Assembly (NCBI GenBank): GCA_014762625.1
Contig: JABURQ010000158.1
Coordinates: 2,501-46,586 of the forward strand
Direction of reading: 5' to 3'
Length of the DNA stretch: 44,086 nt
Source: Planctomycetaceae bacterium
GTDB taxonomy: Bacteria > Planctomycetota > Planctomycetia > Planctomycetales > Planctomycetaceae
Below are positions 34,690 through 41,095 of the stretch, in pieces. The position numbers were made by a program, and so were the translations under genes. Numbering within the stretch: the stretch's first letter is position 1; the number at the start of each line of letters is the position of its first letter. The notes under the pieces are model-generated. The model was given only the letters and a program-made list of their open reading frames with translations. It had not been told where the DNA came from and did no database searches.

Positions 34690-37600
34690 TCACTCCGACA
34701 GCTGTCGAATGATATCTTCGACGCTTTCGAGTTGTTTCTTGTAGCCGGCGAGTGTCTCTCGTGCTTGGGCGACCACTTCTTCAGGCGCTTTGCTGACGAA
34801 GTTCTCGTTCGAGAGTTTGCCTTCCGTCGATTTGATCAGCTTCGTCATTTTCTCCTGCTCCTTCTTCTGACGGGCCAGTTCTTCCTCTTTGTCGATCAAA
34901 CCTTCCAGCGGAATGTAGCCGTCGGCGTCATCCAGAGTGAAACTCGCGGAAGCGGGAGGCCGGGTGATGTCGGCACCGGCCGCTTCCAGAATGATGCGGG
35001 ACAAATTCTCAAACTGTGCCGAGACGTCGCTTAAGTCGCTGGCGACTTCGTCGTTGCACTTCATGTAGAGTTTCATCGGCGTCGACGGCGGGATGTTGTA
35101 GACCGCACGGACGTTCCGAATCGCGACCACCGTCTCCTGCAGACGACCGAACCGCGCTTCGAGAGAACGATCCTGCCACGACTTGGGAACGGATTCGCTG
35201 TCAGGCCAGGGGGCCAGCGTCACCGACTCGGCCGCATCACTCGGTTCGAGCAGACCGCGCGACGGGCAGAGTTCCGCCAGTCGATGCCACAATTCCTCGG
35301 CAATGAACGGCGTAAACGGCGACAACAGGCGGAGCAGGGTATCCAGCACACCGACGAGCACGCGTTGCACGACCGGTTTCTGTTCGTCGTCGCGGAGACG
35401 CTGTTTGATCATCTCCAGATACCAGTCGCAGAACTCGTTCCAGATGAAGTCCCGCAGCGAACGGGTCGCCCCGTCGAACTGATACCGTTCCAGATACTGG
35501 TCCACTTCCTGCACCGTCGATGACAGGCGACTCAGAATCCAGCGGTCTTCGAGTCGCAGGTCGGCTTCGTCAATCGTGCCCGGTGTGTAATCTTCGAGAT
35601 TCATCATCGCGAAGCGGGCCGCGTTCCAGAACTTATTGCAGAAGTTCCGACCATACTCAAACCGTTCCGAATCCATCGTCGCCATCGAGACATCGGGATC
35701 GGGGGTGTAGAGCGGTGTGGGAAACTGGCTTTCCTCTTTACACTTCGGGCAGACCATCGTCGGCTTCGGTTCGCCCTGCGGAATCGGGAACTCACCCTTC
35801 ATCGAACTCGGCACCACCACGGTGATCGTATCGAGTTCGTAAAGTTTCGGATCGACCAGCGTCTCGCAGTGCGGACACTCGTAATTGATCGGCAGGCGGA
35901 CATCCTGAGTCTCGCCGGCAAACGACGCAATCGTGAATCGAACCGCATCGGTCCCGTACTTGCCGATCAGATCGACCGGATCGACGCCGTTCCCTTTCGA
36001 CTTGGACATCGTCTGCCCGAAGCCGTCCAGAATTTTCGGATGGACGTGAACGTGATGGAACGGAATGTCGCCCATGTTGTACAGACCGGTGAGCACCATC
36101 CGCGCGACCCACAGCGTGATAATGTCGCGGCTGGTGACCAGCACACTTTTATCACCGGGATAGAAGTAGGGGAGGACCTTGTTTTCTCCATCGCCCGAAT
36201 CATCCGGTTCGCCATTGAGCGGCGGGTTGTGATCTTCATCGGGCCAGCCGAGCGTTTCATGCGGCCAGAGCGCCGACGAGAACCAGGTATCAAGAACGTC
36301 GGGGTCTTGCCTAATATCAAAGAACGTCTTGATTCCAAATGCAGCATCCGTAGCATCTTCAAATTCCGGAACCCTGTTCATTACAGGTGGGTTTTCCACA
36401 CCCGAAACTCGTTCCTTCATCCGATAGCTCTCTTTGAAATCCCTGAGAGCAGAAATCGCATCTTCTGCACGCTTGGAGCCCGTGCAACACCTTATTGTGG
36501 CGACTTCAACTTCAATACAATATTCGCCTTCACTAACACCAGCTGCTCTGAAGAACTCCGCAAGCTGTTTCTCGGCATCAACTCGAACCTGGTCAGTTCT
36601 GGCCTTATGCTTTTGATATTCTTCTTCATTAGAAAAGCTACCACTAACATCAAGTGTCGCAGACCACACCGGGATCCGGTGTCCCCACCAGAGTTGGCGG
36701 CTGATGCACCAGTCCCGCTTTTCTCCCAGCCAGTCCATATACGTCTTGGCATAGCGGCCGGGATAGAATTTCACGCGGCCATCCTCGACGGCATCCATCG
36801 CATTCTGTGCGAGATCGTCCATCTTGACGAACCACTGATCCGACAGGTAGGGCTCAACGGGAGTCTTGGAACGGTCGCTGTGTTTGAGCGGCACGACGCG
36901 GTCTTCCACTTTTTCGAGAACGCCGCTTTCATCCAACGCCGCGACCACCTTCTCACGGACTTCATAACGATCCAACCCTTCGTACTCACCCGCGTTTTCA
37001 TTGAACGTGCCGTCCGGGTTGAGGAGATTGATGATGCCGATCTCGTCCTCTTTGCCGACATGCCGGAGGTAACAGGCGTAGTCGTTCGGATCGTGAGCCG
37101 GGGTGACCTTCACCGCCCCGGTCCCTTTTTCCTTATCCGCGAGGAAGGCGTCTTCGATGATCGGAATATCGCGCCGGTCTTCAGGAATACCGTTGAGCGG
37201 AATGCGCACCTTCTTCCCGACCAGATCGGCGTACCGTTCGTCGCCCGGATAGACACAGACGGCGGTATCGCCGAGCATCGTTTCGGGACGAGTGGTCGAG
37301 AAGGAGATTTTCTTATTGGTTTCGTTGCCGTTCTCATCGACGACATAGTAGTGGAACGTCCAGAAGTGACCGTTCACGTCTTCGGAGAAGACTTCGTCAT
37401 CGGCGACGGCAGTCTGAAGGTGCGCATCCCAGTTGACGAGACGTTTGCCGCGATAGATCAGGCCATCTTTGAACAACTTGAAGAAGGTTCGGCGGACCGC
37501 TTTCTCGCAGACTTCGTCGAGCGTGAATCGTGTCCGTCGCCAGTCACAACTCGCCCCGATCGATTTGAGCTGTGAGAGGATCCGCTCTTCGTAGGTGTCT

Positions 37601-37965
37601 TTCCATTTCCAGATTCGATTGACGAGGGCATCACGACCGATGTCGTGGCGGGTGAGTCCTTCTTCTTCGAACATGCGCCGTTCGACAACCGCCTGCGTCG
37701 CGATGCCCGCGTGATCGGTCCCCGGCATCCAGAGAGCTTCGTACCCCTGCATCCGTTTGCGGCGGGTGATCAGATCCTGCAGTGTGCCGTTAAGCGCGTG
37801 CCCCATATGCAACGCACCGGTCACGTTGGGCAGGGGGATCATGATCGTGTGCGACGGCTTGTCCTCCTGGGGATCGGCGTTAAAGAAGCCGTTGGATTCC
37901 CAGTAAGGGTACCACTTCTGCTGGGCGTCCTGCGGGTCGTACTGCTTGGGAATGTCTTGGGTCAT
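34690..37965 (-). CDS. valS: Valine--tRNA ligase with two inserts
   Basis: The 1,091-residue class I aminoacyl-tRNA synthetase charges tRNA-Val and edits misactivated Thr. The HIGH motif appears as HMGH in [15 protein letters not shown], near residue 54. The KMSKS motif appears as TMSKS near residue 651. Other hallmarks are [11 protein letters not shown] near 420-430, [20 protein letters not shown] near 553-572, and a C-terminal coiled coil after ~1020. E. coli ValS has 951 residues. The excess is a ~95-residue insert between HRIPVW and DVLDTW, at markedly lower GC, and a segment with CPHC (~695) and CPKC (~738) after KMSKS. No Shine-Dalgarno site is evident. Confidence 0.97.
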   Translation of the reverse strand: [1091 protein letters not shown]

Positions 37966-38019: not shown

Positions 38020-38454
38020 GCCAGCGCAAGCTGGCAGGGGACGCTATAGCTGATCGATCGAGGCACTGGCGAGACGCCAGTGGCACCCGTTGAATGTTTA
38101 TGTGTAGGGTCCGCTGTGAGGACCGTTCTGTTTGACGTTGTTAATCGAATATGCCGACACGGAGTGTCGGCTTACTATGAATGTCGAATATTAAATATCT
38201 CCTCCTCATCCAGCCTTCGGCCACCTTCTCCTCCCGAGGAGGAGAAGGATTTCATCAACGCTGTTCAGTTGTCAAATTATCTTACCAACATGCCCACGCA
38301 AGTGAGGGCATGACACCCGACATTGCCATTCATCGTCATCAGCCGGAACGCGCTAGCGTCCGGTTTCTTAAAACAACCGTGGGCTAGCGCCCAGCGGCTG
38401 ATTTCAACTGTTCACATTCAACTCGATTCTCTCTCGTGTCAGGCACAGCCTGAC
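38020..38454. repeat. Palindromic repeat array A (between cimA and valS)
   Basis: A string of short perfect or near-perfect inverted repeats. GCCAGC-GCAA-GCTGGC (38020-38035); CACTGGCG-AGA-CGCCAGTG (from 38064); GGTCC...GGACC (near 38108); GCCGACAC-GGA-GTGTCGGC (near 38153); CCTTCTCCTCC-CGA-GGAGGAGAAGG (near 38224); ATGCCC...GGGCAT (near 38290). A 65-bp unit with outer arms ATCAGCCG/CGGCTGAT follows (38338-38402), then GTCAGGC-ACA-GCCTGAC (38438-38454). Segments 38060-38285 and 38338-38419 match array B in the same order and orientation. No ORF is credible here. Confidence 0.85.
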
Positions 38455-38473: not shown

Positions 38474-40054
38474 TCAATCTCCGTTCGATTCGAACGCTCC
38501 CTTATCCTTGTAAAGTTTGTATTCAACGCTATCGACCAGAGCGAGCCAACTCGCTTCAATGATGTTCTCGCTCACGCCGATCGTGCTCCAGACGTCATCC
38601 TCGTCCGCCGATTCGATGATCACCCGCACGCGGGCGGCGGTCCCTTCAGTCGAATTGATCACACGCACTTTATAGTCAACCAGATGCATGTCGGAAAGGC
38701 TCGGATAGTGGGGAAGGAGCGCTTTGCGGAGCGCCGTATCGAGAGCATTGACCGGGCCGTCTCCCTCACCCACCACGTGCTGCTCGAAATCGCCGACTTT
38801 GAGTTTGATCGTCGCTTCGGTCAGCGGCTCGGAATCCGCGGTCGTCTCGACGTTCACCCGATAGTGAATTCGTTGGAAATGCGGCGTGAAGGTGTCGGCC
38901 ACGCGACGCACGAGCAGATCGAAAGACGCCTCCGCGGCTTCAAACTGATATCCCAGATTTTCGTAATCCTGGACCGCCTGCAGAATGTTGGTCATCAAAT
39001 CCGGGTCCTGATCCATCCGCAGCTTGGTCGTCTTGGCGACAATATTGGAACGTCCGGAAAGTTCACTCACCAGAATGCGGCGCTCGTTACCGACCAGTTC
39101 GGGATCGATATGTTCGTAACTGTGGGCGATCCGATTGACGGCGTGGACGTGCATGCCTCCTTTGTGAGCGAAGGCAGAACGCCCGACAAACGGTTGTCCG
39201 TTCCGACCGCTCATGTTGGCCAGCTCGTAGACATACCGCGACAACTCGGTGAGATGTTGGACCCCTTCATCGTGAAGGACTTTGTAATTCTTCTTGATCG
39301 CCAGATTCGCGATCGCGCTGATCAGGTCCGCGTTGCCGCAGCGTTCGCCGATCCCGTTGATGGTTCCCTGCACCTGGATCGCCCCATGTTCGATGGCGGC
39401 CATCGTGTTGGCGATGGCGAGATCGCCGTCGTTGTGGGTATGGATGCCGACCGGAATATCGAGCGCTGCTCGGGCCGCGTCGACCGCTTCCGCGACCTGC
39501 TCGGGGAGACAACCGCCGTTGGTGTCGCAGAGGACGACAATCGAGGCGCCCCCCTCTTCGGCAGCTTTGATGGTTTTCAGCGCAAACTCGGGATTGTTTC
39601 GATAGCCGTCGAAATAGTGCTCGGCGTCGTAAACGAGCTCGCGGCCTTCGGAGACGAGGTAGGCAATCGAGTCCCGGATCATCGCCAGGTTTTCGTCTTC
39701 GTCAACCCGCAACACTTCGTGGACGTGCAGGTCCCACGTTTTGCCGACCACCGTGCAAACGGGAGCCTTCGAATCCCGCAACGCAATCATGCAGGTATCG
39801 TCTTCCGCAGCGACGCCCCGACGACGCGTCATTCCAAACGCACATACCTTGGCATTCTTCAAGTCCATGTCGGCGGCACGTTGAAAGAATTCCTCGTCCT
39901 TGGGATTGGAGAGGGGATACCCCCCCTCAATGTAGTCGAAGCCCAGTTCGTCGAGTTTGGCGGTAATCAGCAACTTGTCCTGTAAGGAGAAGTTGACGCC
40001 TTCACCCTGGCTGCCGTCTCGCAGCGTGGTGTCGTAGATCTGAATGCGACTCAT
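38474..40054 (-). CDS. cimA: Citramalate synthase
   Basis: The 526-residue enzyme condenses pyruvate with acetyl-CoA to (R)-citramalate, the threonine-independent entry to isoleucine synthesis. The start IYDTTLRDGSQGEGVNFS (about 5-22) is the LeuA/CimA signature. HTHNDGDLAIANT near 203-215 supplies metal ligands, and GTINGIGERCGNADL near 228-242 follows. The C-terminal ~140 residues are a LeuA-type regulatory dimer domain (LTEATIKLKVGDFEQHVVGEG onward). Length and motifs fit the ~520-residue CimA group rather than shorter isopropylmalate synthases. The nearest upstream minus-strand elements are repeat array B and an Ile/Val/Leu-rich leader ORF with terminator. Confidence 0.95.
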   Translation of the reverse strand: MSRIQIYDTTLRDGSQGEGVNFSLQDKLLITAKLDELGFDYIEGGYPLSNPKDEEFFQRAADMDLKNAKVCAFGMTRRRGVAAEDDTCMIALRDSKAPVCTVVGKTWDLHVHEVLRVDEDENLAMIRDSIAYLVSEGRELVYDAEHYFDGYRNNPEFALKTIKAAEEGGASIVVLCDTNGGCLPEQVAEAVDAARAALDIPVGIHTHNDGDLAIANTMAAIEHGAIQVQGTINGIGERCGNADLISAIANLAIKKNYKVLHDEGVQHLTELSRYVYELANMSGRNGQPFVGRSAFAHKGGMHVHAVNRIAHSYEHIDPELVGNERRILVSELSGRSNIVAKTTKLRMDQDPDLMTNILQAVQDYENLGYQFEAAEASFDLLVRRVADTFTPHFQRIHYRVNVETTADSEPLTEATIKLKVGDFEQHVVGEGDGPVNALDTALRKALLPHYPSLSDMHLVDYKVRVINSTEGTAARVRVIIESADEDDVWSTIGVSENIIEASWLALVDSVEYKLYKDKGAFESNGD

Positions 40055-40097: not shown

Positions 40098-40512
40098 GAG
40101 GCACTGGCGAGACGCCAGTGGCACCCGTTGAATTGTTATTTGTTTGTAGGGTCCGCTGTGCAGACCATTCTGTTCGAGGTTTTTGATCAAATTTGCCGAC
40201 ACGGAGGGTCGGCCGACTGTGAATATCGAAGGTTTCTCACGCCTCCTCATCCGGCCTTCGGCCACCTTCTCCTCCCGAGGAGGAGAAGGATTTCATCAAC
40301 GCTATCCTGCTATCAAATGATCCTACCTGCATGCCACCCTCTCCTCCTCTGGAGGAGAGGGACGGGGTGAGGAGGAAATCTGTATCCGGCCGGTGGAACC
40401 GGTCCTACCACTCAATTTCTTTTCAGCAAAATCAGCCGGAACGCGCTAGCGTCCGGTTACTCACAATAACCGTGGGCTAGCGCCCAGCGGCTGATTTCGT
40501 CTGTTAACATTC
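40098..40512. repeat. Palindromic repeat array B (upstream of cimA)
   Basis: This repeats the modules of array A in the same order: CACTGGCG-AGA-CGCCAGTG (near 40103), GGTC...GACC (near 40150), GCCGAC...GTCGGC with one stem change (near 40195), CCTTCTCCTCC-CGA-GGAGGAGAAGG (near 40265), and the 65-bp ATCAGCCG/CGGCTGAT unit (40431-40495). It has its own extra modules, CCCTCTCCTCC-TCT-GGAGGAGAGGG (40337-40361) and CCGGT-GGA-ACCGG (near 40390), in place of the ATGCCC/GGGCAT hairpin of A. It lies between the attenuator terminator and the cimA start. Confidence 0.85.
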
Positions 40513-40529: not shown

Positions 40530-40560
40530 AAAAAAACCCTCAGGCTTGCGGCCTGAGGGT
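40530..40560 (-). terminator. Attenuator terminator downstream of the BCAA leader ORF
   Basis: On the minus strand ACCCTCAGGC and GCCTGAGGGT form a perfect 10-bp stem with loop CGCAA, followed directly by TTTTTTT. It lies 27 bases past the leader ORF stop and about 475 bases upstream of cimA. Since no complete gene of ordinary size ends here, its natural role is termination of the leader RNA. Confidence 0.93.
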
Positions 40561-40614
40561 CTGAAAATTTCGATTTCTGTTATGACCTCACAGCCGCACC
40601 GTTTCCGACGGCAC
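40549..40614 (-). promoter_or_regulatory. Alternative RNA hairpins of the cimA attenuator
   Basis: Two further structures compete with the terminator. Hairpin 1:2 (40596-40614) pairs GTGCCGT with ACGGTGC around loop CGGAA, covering leader codons 17-23. The antiterminator 2:3 pairs CGGCTGTGAGGT (40585-40596, the last codons and stop) with ACCCTCAGGCCG (40549-40560, the 5' arm of the terminator), 11 pairs with one bulge on each side. A ribosome stalled at the Ile codons 15-16 would cover the 5' arm of 1:2 and favour 2:3. A ribosome reaching the stop would cover region 2 and favour termination. Paired by eye, not by energy calculation. Confidence 0.75.
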
Positions 40615-40662
40615 AATAATGCCGACCAGAATGTCAATAATGACGATGTTGTTGCGGTTCAT
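40588..40662 (-). CDS. Branched-chain amino acid leader peptide of cimA (24 residues)
   Basis: The ORF begins ATG AAC CGC AAC AAC and ends CGG CTG TGA. AAGGA lies 7 bases ahead of the ATG. Of 24 residues, six are Ile (codons 6, 8, 9, 11, 15, 16), four Val (7, 13, 17, 22) and two Leu (12, 24). The peptide is too short to form a protein domain, and its composition matches leader peptides of ilv and leu attenuators in other bacteria. Five of the six Ile codons are ATT. The next gene downstream on the same strand is cimA, which makes the precursor of Ile. The ORF would be translated to sense charged Ile-tRNA, and perhaps Val- and Leu-tRNA. Confidence 0.85.
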   Translation of the reverse strand: MNRNNIVIIDILVGIIVPSETVRL

Positions 40663-40682
40663 GAGTGAATCCTTGAGAAAAA

Positions 40683-40711
40683 ATAGTACCCGAGGGACCG
40701 GGGAGAGTCAA
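40683..40711 (-). promoter_or_regulatory. Sigma-70 promoter of the cimA leader
   Basis: TTGACT (40711-40706) and TACTAT (40688-40683) are separated by exactly 17 bases, matching consensus at 5 of 6 positions in each hexamer. The start point would be near 40676, giving a leader of about 14 bases before the ATG at 40662. Confidence 0.85.
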
Positions 40712-40834: not shown

Positions 40835-41095
40835 ATGTCACCAAAAATCACCGACGAACTGAATCAAGCACTGCATCAGCACCACGGCCTGATTGAAGCC
40901 GAAGGCGCGGATGGCAAAGTGGTCGTCATGACGATGCAAGTCTATCGCGAGTTGATGGGAGTTAGCTCGGACGAAGAACTTCAAGCCTCGGTCCAGGCAA
41001 TCGAAGAGGGCTTCGCGGACATCGAAGCAGGACGTACTAAACCAATGAATCAAGTCTTCCGCGAACTCGACGAGAAACATGAGCTTCAAGATTGA
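40835..41095 (+). CDS. Antitoxin of a type II toxin-antitoxin pair
   Basis: The 86-residue acidic protein overlaps the toxin gene by 17 bases, the usual antitoxin-first layout. A short N-terminal region contains HHGLIEAEGADGKVVVMTMQVYREL, a Phd/YefM-like or small planctomycete antitoxin pattern. The C-terminal half is helical and acidic (SSDEELQASVQAIEEGFADIEAG), suited to wrap the toxin. The family is not certain. No Shine-Dalgarno site lies upstream and the promoter's start point sits at the ATG. Confidence 0.8.
   Translation: MSPKITDELNQALHQHHGLIEAEGADGKVVVMTMQVYRELMGVSSDEELQASVQAIEEGFADIEAGRTKPMNQVFRELDEKHELQD

Follow-up and report, generated by a model that had tools for sequence, protein, structure and literature searches.

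The cimA leader and its surroundings

The window, by which we mean the whole 44,086-nucleotide stretch of Planctomycetaceae DNA that was analysed, carries on its minus strand a citramalate synthase gene, cimA (38474..40054; TIGR00977, PF00682, PF08502). This is the proposed regulated gene, and its score against the equivalog model TIGR00977 (680 bits, cut-off 450) bears out the identity that an earlier sequence-only reading of the same DNA had given it. A valyl-tRNA synthetase gene, valS (34690..37965; NF004349 (PRK05729.1), 1031.8 bits), begins 508 nt after cimA on the same strand and is probably included in the operon as its second gene.

The leader lies upstream of cimA, also on the minus strand. 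A promoter scan placed a sigma-70-type promoter (40683..40711) directly 5' of it, with the -35 box TTGACT at 40711-40706, a 17-nt spacer and the -10 box TACTAT at 40688-40683. The promoter is kept in two other genomes of the same genus (congeners L082 and L083), where it reads TTGACT-17-TATGAT and TTGACT-17-TATCAT. Over the whole scanned region promoter-like sites were not in excess (2 versus 2.5 in shuffles), and a simple scan of the 475 bases from the terminator's T-run to cimA gave no other such site on the minus strand. A Shine-Dalgarno sequence, AAGGA (40670..40674), stands 7 nt 5' of the ATG and is retained in both congeners as CAAGGA. The leader ORF itself, MNRNNIVIIDILVGIIVPSETVRL (40588..40662), has 24 codons followed by TGA, 12 of them for branched-chain amino acids (6 Ile, 4 Val and 2 Leu). 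When the 150 nt 5' of the terminator were shuffled, an ORF with as many Ile codons appeared in none of 300 shuffles, as would be expected of a short attenuator ORF enriched in control codons. The likely control codons are the tandem ATT ATT for Ile 15-16 (40615..40620), which end 16 nt 5' of the first paired base of the antiterminator.

Between the leader ORF and cimA lies an intrinsic terminator (40530..40562), whose stem (40562-40551/40545-40534) consists of 10 core pairs extended outward by a G-U and an A-U pair, with seven T residues at 40536-40530. None of 200 shuffles was as stable as this hairpin (-21.2 kcal/mol, z -6.15). A competing antiterminator (-22.1 kcal/mol; 0 of 300 shuffles as strong) can form between a left arm (40584..40598) that overlaps the last codons and the stop codon, and a right arm (40547..40561) common to the terminator 5' arm and loop. 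The sequence-only reading had described all of these elements, from the near-consensus promoter, the AAGGA site and the 24-codon ORF with 12 Ile, Val or Leu residues to the 10-bp terminator and the pairing of the ORF's end with the terminator's 5' arm, and each of them stood up to the present analysis.

Within the genus (the window, L082 and L083) the promoter, start codon, Shine-Dalgarno sequence and stems are conserved. The leader peptide is 87.5% identical in L083 and 81% identical over 21 residues in L082, and the leader Ile codons are kept except for codon 11, where ATT has become ATA in L083. The start of the L083 leader was set by hand to the ATG matching that of the window in the genus alignment and in the promoter, valS and codon-choice tests.

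Two features of the neighbourhood were noted in passing. The spacers at 38060-38419 and 40098-40512 share a series of blocks (46-98 nt, 83-93% identical) whose order and orientation agree, and cimA therefore lies between two direct repeats of ~360-415 nt; L082 shares only parts of these repeats, some of them inverted. On the plus strand, between ftsK and the leader, there is a ParE-type toxin gene (PF05016; 41079-41396), overlapped upstream by a small ORF (40835-41095) that has no Pfam match and is perhaps its antitoxin. Since ftsK ends only ~125 nt before the leader ORF in L083, the ParE-type pair looks inserted.

Ile-rich leaders precede cimA in many planctomycetes

For comparison we used 83 loci, namely the best 80 of 587 cimA relatives (one genome per species), the two same-genus genomes and the window. 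The leader was taken as the best ORF ending 10-60 nt 5' of a terminator that lay at most 700 nt from cimA, and its Ile count was set against 300 dinucleotide shuffles of each locus and against 148 other terminators in the same loci. Such a terminator, with enough sequence upstream, was present at 67 of the 83 loci; the remaining 16, including the Isosphaeraceae L059, L061 and L062 and the Lacipirellulaceae L026 and L050, had no terminator or too little sequence. Over the 67 loci the best ORF contained 3.72 Ile codons on average versus 0.59 in shuffled sequence, and the control terminators had a mean of 0.24, with a single one reaching 4. Enrichment was found at 51 of the 67 loci at p≤0.05 and at 41 at p≤0.01, and 16 terminator-bearing loci fell short of p≤0.05. 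Ile-rich leaders are therefore found before the terminator upstream of cimA in many planctomycetes, where the sequence-only reading had expected conservation.

By our criteria a leader was judged present at 55 of the 83 loci. These 55 remained after 11 exclusions from 66 loci with a candidate ORF, and they were used for the antiterminator, geometry, helix, promoter, valS and codon tests; the exclusion list played no part in the Ile-enrichment test on 67 loci or in the cimA/leuA specificity test. L060, L067 and L070 were excluded by rule (fewer than 2 Ile codons, a weak terminator or unusual spacing). A list drawn up by eye took out L019, L041, L052, L057, L072, L073, L076 and L079; some of these fail the rule as well. 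The ORFs of the 55 leaders were chosen by their Ile+Val+Leu score, blind to valS. A promoter-like site matching at least 9 of 12 positions precedes 39 of the 55 leaders, against a shuffle expectation of 2.0, which extends the predicted conservation to the promoter; in three of these 39 (L004, L018 and L039) the start chosen for the ORF is probably wrong, since the -10 box lies across it or downstream of it.

The stop codon mostly lies 20-45 nt before the terminator stem across loci, and the peptides diverge between genera (for instance SIIIICKITGS, RIIVISIIGDV and IGVVVVITTG). Some clades share motifs beyond their Ile and Val codons, GIxIPA in L004, L007, L008 and L014 and AQGVR in L039, L044, L054 and L055, and these may stem from RNA structure or from some function of the nascent chain. 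A typical leader is lacking at six loci, which belong to Rhodopirellula, Stieleria, Novipirellula and Rubripirellula. In Rhodopirellula L067 and L070 we observed similar short ORFs ending in SPSII(N/S)RVSGIVGQH, ~70 nt before a hairpin and T-run upstream of cimA, and these are possibly divergent leaders.

The antiterminator varies together with the terminator

Both stems could be followed across leaders. In 29 leaders 96.6% of the terminator cells are paired, and 4 of the 10 pairs have changed on both sides. On the 29-sequence alignment the antiterminator has 83.1% of its cells paired versus 32-46% when the pairing is slid. Individually, the antiterminator was stronger than in shuffles for 38 of the 55 leaders at p≤0.05 and for 25 at p≤0.01; for 17 of the 55 it was not above shuffles at p≤0.05. 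The terminator core differs from group to group (CCCTCAGG, CCTGAGG, CCCCGGAG and others), and the leader arm varies along with it: an arm pairs with its own terminator at -18.6 kcal/mol versus -13.8 kcal/mol with other terminator classes, its own being the better partner in 49 of 55 leaders, and when the 55 arms and terminators were re-paired at random, none of 5000 permutations was as good. Covariation of the left arm within one family (MAFFT alignment) was modest (0.169 versus 0.138, sd 0.014; 11 of 500 shuffles), and pairs changed on both sides showed no excess in the same alignment (3 versus 2.1 in shuffles; 155 of 500). The re-pairing test indicates that the antiterminator is under selection.

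The placement of the left arm is also conserved, with a median extent from -9 to +6 relative to the end of the stop codon. If the footprint of a ribosome at the stop codon is taken to reach 12 nt beyond it, half or more of the arm would be covered in all 55 leaders; the distance from the last Ile codon or tandem to the arm is 9 nt or more in 42 and shorter in 13. The antiterminator can thus be covered by a ribosome at the stop codon, and it excludes the terminator.

The model that fits best is a two-state switch in which a stop-codon ribosome would mask the antiterminator. RNA polymerase would start shortly after the -10 box, and a ribosome would begin to translate the 24-codon leader. With Ile-tRNA charged, and probably Val-tRNA too if valS belongs to the operon, the ribosome would reach the stop codon and cover the last codons and the bases that follow, which form the antiterminator left arm; with this arm masked, the terminator would fold and transcription would end near 40530. 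A ribosome stalled at Ile codons 15-16 would instead leave the left arm (40598-40584) free to pair with the terminator 5' arm, and once the antiterminator had formed, transcription would continue into cimA. Comparison between genomes thus supports the ORF, the promoter, the terminator, the antiterminator and a codon content that matches the downstream enzyme; from these we infer translation of the ORF, stalling, termination and Ile-dependent read-through. We regard the leader as a ribosome-mediated transcription attenuator of the cimA(-valS) operon with a probability of about 0.92. Given an Ile-rich leader joined to alternative RNA folds, the planctomycetes that carry it probably switch cimA on when the ribosome runs short of Ile.

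A protector helix is not conserved

The sequence-only reading had proposed a third structure, a 7-bp hairpin over codons 17-23, and covariation in all three stems. Its terminator and antiterminator are upheld on both counts; the protecting hairpin is neither conserved nor covarying. In a classical three-structure attenuator, a 1:2 helix would protect the antiterminator arm, and the 7-bp hairpin (40614-40608/40602-40596) can indeed form in the window, two of its pairs being G-U. However, as we paired the alignment, L082 can no longer form three of the seven pairs and L083 lacks one; over the set, no significant pairing was seen between the upstream part of the leader and the antiterminator arm (8 of 55 leaders at p≤0.05, none at p≤0.01), which led us to reject a conserved trp-type protector helix. 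Between codon 13 and the stop codon (40588-40625) the RNA is not more stably folded than shuffled sequence (z -0.61; 50 of 200 shuffles as stable). More in line with the classical scheme, in the minimum-energy folds of the three genus members the regions of the start and stop codons are paired with each other, and an invariant 6-bp hairpin forms around Ile codons 15-16 (40624-40619/40614-40609). No covariation was seen for these two elements, each of which may act locally as a protector or pause structure. Taken together, we consider the three-structure scheme unlikely.

Leader codons match the downstream enzyme

A covariance model of the leader, searched against the window's own genome, recovered the cimA leader (E 6e-14) and a second, weak match (E 0.011) in the region before leuA. 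This region (L093:1500-1650) contains a Leu-rich leader, MQYLNLLSLLLPGLLLCGGA, and a terminator. A terminator is present at 29 of the family's 30 best leuA loci. The leader ORF is enriched in Leu at 26 of these 29 (mean 6.6 versus 1.8), in Ile at none and in Val at none; at cimA the enrichment is in Ile (52 of 67 loci), with Val enriched at 23 and Leu at 3. The leuA antiterminators resembled those of cimA in the permutation test (0 of 5000 as good), with 16 of 29 at p≤0.05. The control codons thus specify the amino acid made by the regulated pathway, Ile before cimA and Leu before leuA, and the likeness to leu attenuators suggested earlier has a direct counterpart in the leuA loci. No comparable leader was found at other loci: of 25 ilvB loci of the family, 22 had no terminator and the other 3 no matching ORF; of the 16 trpE loci used (those of 20 fetched that passed the family cut-off), 3 had a hairpin and T-run; and of the 13 ilvD loci used (those of 22 fetched that were complete and over the cut-off), 2 had one, in no case with a Trp-rich leader or one rich in Ile, Leu or Val. 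The best ORF in the trpE/ilvD scan, which covered 800 nt before the profile match with start codons unverified, had 3 Val and 2 Ile codons and lay at one trpE locus. Codon-specific leaders appear to control cimA and leuA in many genera, with ilvB, ilvD and trpE as internal controls.

The choice among Ile codons is equally distinctive. Leaders use ATT 166 times and ATC 82 times, versus 317 and 949 times in the cimA genes (odds ratio 6.1), whereas other NNT/NNC codons do not differ between leaders and cimA genes (odds ratio 1.05) and Val codons do so slightly (1.8). The expectation of free third positions in the control codons accordingly fails, as leader Ile is mostly ATT, the reverse of cimA. 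One model of attenuation demands that particular synonyms be chosen among the control codons (PMC1183508). Together, the ATT preference and the pathway-matched codon content point to decoding as the signal.

These data bear on two further explanations. The same terminator/antiterminator switch would serve an arrest peptide, or an aptamer or T-box working the terminator. The nascent chains of tnaC and speFL stall the ribosome by their sequence, and the clade motifs GIxIPA and AQGVR would suit such a role. Peptides differ between clades, however, and a codon content that follows the pathway, with ATT favoured, argues for decoding over both a stalling chain and a small molecule; in nine stretches scanned, no Rfam family matched at the leader, and the only hits were sub-threshold miRNA matches elsewhere, on which grounds a T-box or known riboswitch was rejected. 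We hold this group of mechanisms to be very improbable. Least probable of all, and close to negligible, is an ordinary small-protein gene that precedes cimA by accident, which would have its own promoter, Shine-Dalgarno sequence and terminator and a peptide conserved in the genus, but would explain neither why the peptide varies widely between genera while Ile codons and terminator distance are kept, nor the selection on the antiterminator, nor the Leu version at leuA.

Val codons accompany valS

At 55 of 82 loci cimA is followed on its own strand by a valS match, and some of the other sequences end soon after cimA. For the 55 leaders, valS is the next gene in 35 (median gap 145 nt, maximum 1439) and is not in 14; the other 6 were assigned to neither group. 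At least two Val codons occur in 33 of the 35 leaders with valS next versus 3 of the 14 without it (Fisher p 8e-7), an association that was noticed in the data first and tested afterwards; the number of Ile codons does not differ (4.3 with valS versus 5.0 without). Adjacency of valS changes 6 times on the cimA tree, and in independent pairs the difference was in the same direction in 4.4 of 5 and never opposite (median p 0.0625). By PGLS, valS adjacency adds 2.3 Val codons (p 4e-5), on a quick LG+G4 tree with a midpoint root and a small nugget that we chose.

A second set of 55 loci yielded 43 usable leaders, 41 of them with a known neighbour; the corresponding counts were 12 of 17 with valS versus 2 of 24 without (p 5e-5), 20 of the 24 rows without valS coming from one order and the comparison within the window's family (12 of 17 versus 2 of 4) not being significant. 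We found no Val leader in 12 regions upstream of a valS that lies apart from cimA (L191, where the match starts at residue 48, being unreliable), and 2 of the 14 genomes checked for a separate valS gave no valS match. From these sequence patterns the Val codons appear to be part of the signal, and the leader likely senses Val too where valS is in the operon. This would be a case in which regulatory leader codons seem to follow the tRNA synthetase gene content of an operon. In two loci of family f97 (L356 and L357), valS starts ~2 nt after the aligned end of cimA and no leader was found; the cimA-valS pair therefore exists without the attenuator as well.

Distribution of the leader and the Gemmatales

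Candidate leaders were found in Planctomycetales, Pirellulales, Gemmatales and Isosphaerales (L044), and also in families f2, f3 and f90 of the window's class. In another order 81 genomes were searched, and of the 28 with a cimA match at E≤1e-150, 22 carry a leader containing four or more Ile codons, for example MNTRIIGIIIIDEHPCW. Judged from the table of 20 further stretches, 6 of 7 from f2, f3 and f90 carry a leader before cimA, and none of 13 from the six families f91, f44, f76, f47, f97 and f101 does. The leader is thus widespread in the phylum and not universal. When 246 genomes were searched with the covariance model, 34 gave a match at E≤0.05. Thirty loci were fetched from this search: tblastn showed cimA in 15 of them, and the other matches are unverified or due to chance.

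The Gemmatales leaders are L032, L039, L055 and L065, the last from Gemmata sp. IIL30. Separated transcription and translation have been reported for Gemmata obscuriglobus, as cited in three papers (PMC6212462, PMC5287468, PMC5394234), and attenuators in this order, if true, would mean that ribosomes translate nascent RNA in a genus for which the two processes are reported to be spatially separated. The antiterminators of the four leaders are individually uneven (27, 4, 97 and 7 of 300 shuffles as strong, respectively), and we therefore treat them as a lead rather than as proof of coupling. The best cimA match to Gemmata among 392 sampled genomes was 71%. We see an even chance that one leader reads two amino acids, with Ile codons for cimA and Val codons added if valS is next (few or none otherwise), and that Gemmatales attenuators, including that of a Gemmata, imply translation of nascent RNA there. 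The leaders would offer a simple genetic test of transcription-translation coupling in planctomycetes, a matter debated in Gemmata.

Comparison with known attenuators

A 2010 survey states that beyond Proteobacteria and Actinobacteria no leader-peptide system had been shown to its authors' knowledge, the atypical ermC leader excepted (PMC2965389). Short leader genes close to genes have been counted in many phyla, including planctomycetes, in a paper whose text does not contain the words isoleucine, ilv or leu (PMC4833913). Among open PubMed Central papers we found no description of an amino-acid attenuator in planctomycetes.

The branched-chain attenuators of Proteobacteria are those of ilvL-ilvGMEDA, ivbL-ilvBN and leuL-leuABCD. 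The planctomycete leader resembles them in its short ORF with codons for the regulated amino acids, its terminator and its competing antiterminator; it differs in that its target is cimA and not ilvG or ilvB, with no leader found at the ilvB and ilvD loci of the family, and in having no conserved protector helix. Control of a terminator by a specific amino acid is also a property of T-box leaders, whereas Rfam found no T-box in the nine stretches scanned.

Attenuation was proposed for Actinobacteria ilvB leaders (PMC1262725) and for the Corynebacterium ilvB-II uORF (PMC10272879), on an ORF enriched in branched-chain amino acids. The planctomycete leaders share this enrichment; they belong to another phylum and precede another gene, and in them the competing antiterminator and the enzyme-specific codons can be demonstrated by comparison. 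Synthetase genes under leader peptides have likewise been described for hisS in bacilli (PMC2965389) and in aminoacyl-tRNA synthetase attenuators such as that of Streptomyces leuS (PMC1262725). In the planctomycete operon a synthetase gene would likewise come under a leader peptide, but valS would come second, behind a gene of biosynthesis, and a single leader would combine Val codons with Ile codons. Altogether, the anatomy is that of a ribosome-mediated attenuator, and what sets this variant apart is its target gene, its phylum, the absence of any protector helix conserved over the set and, probably, the reading of Ile together with Val.
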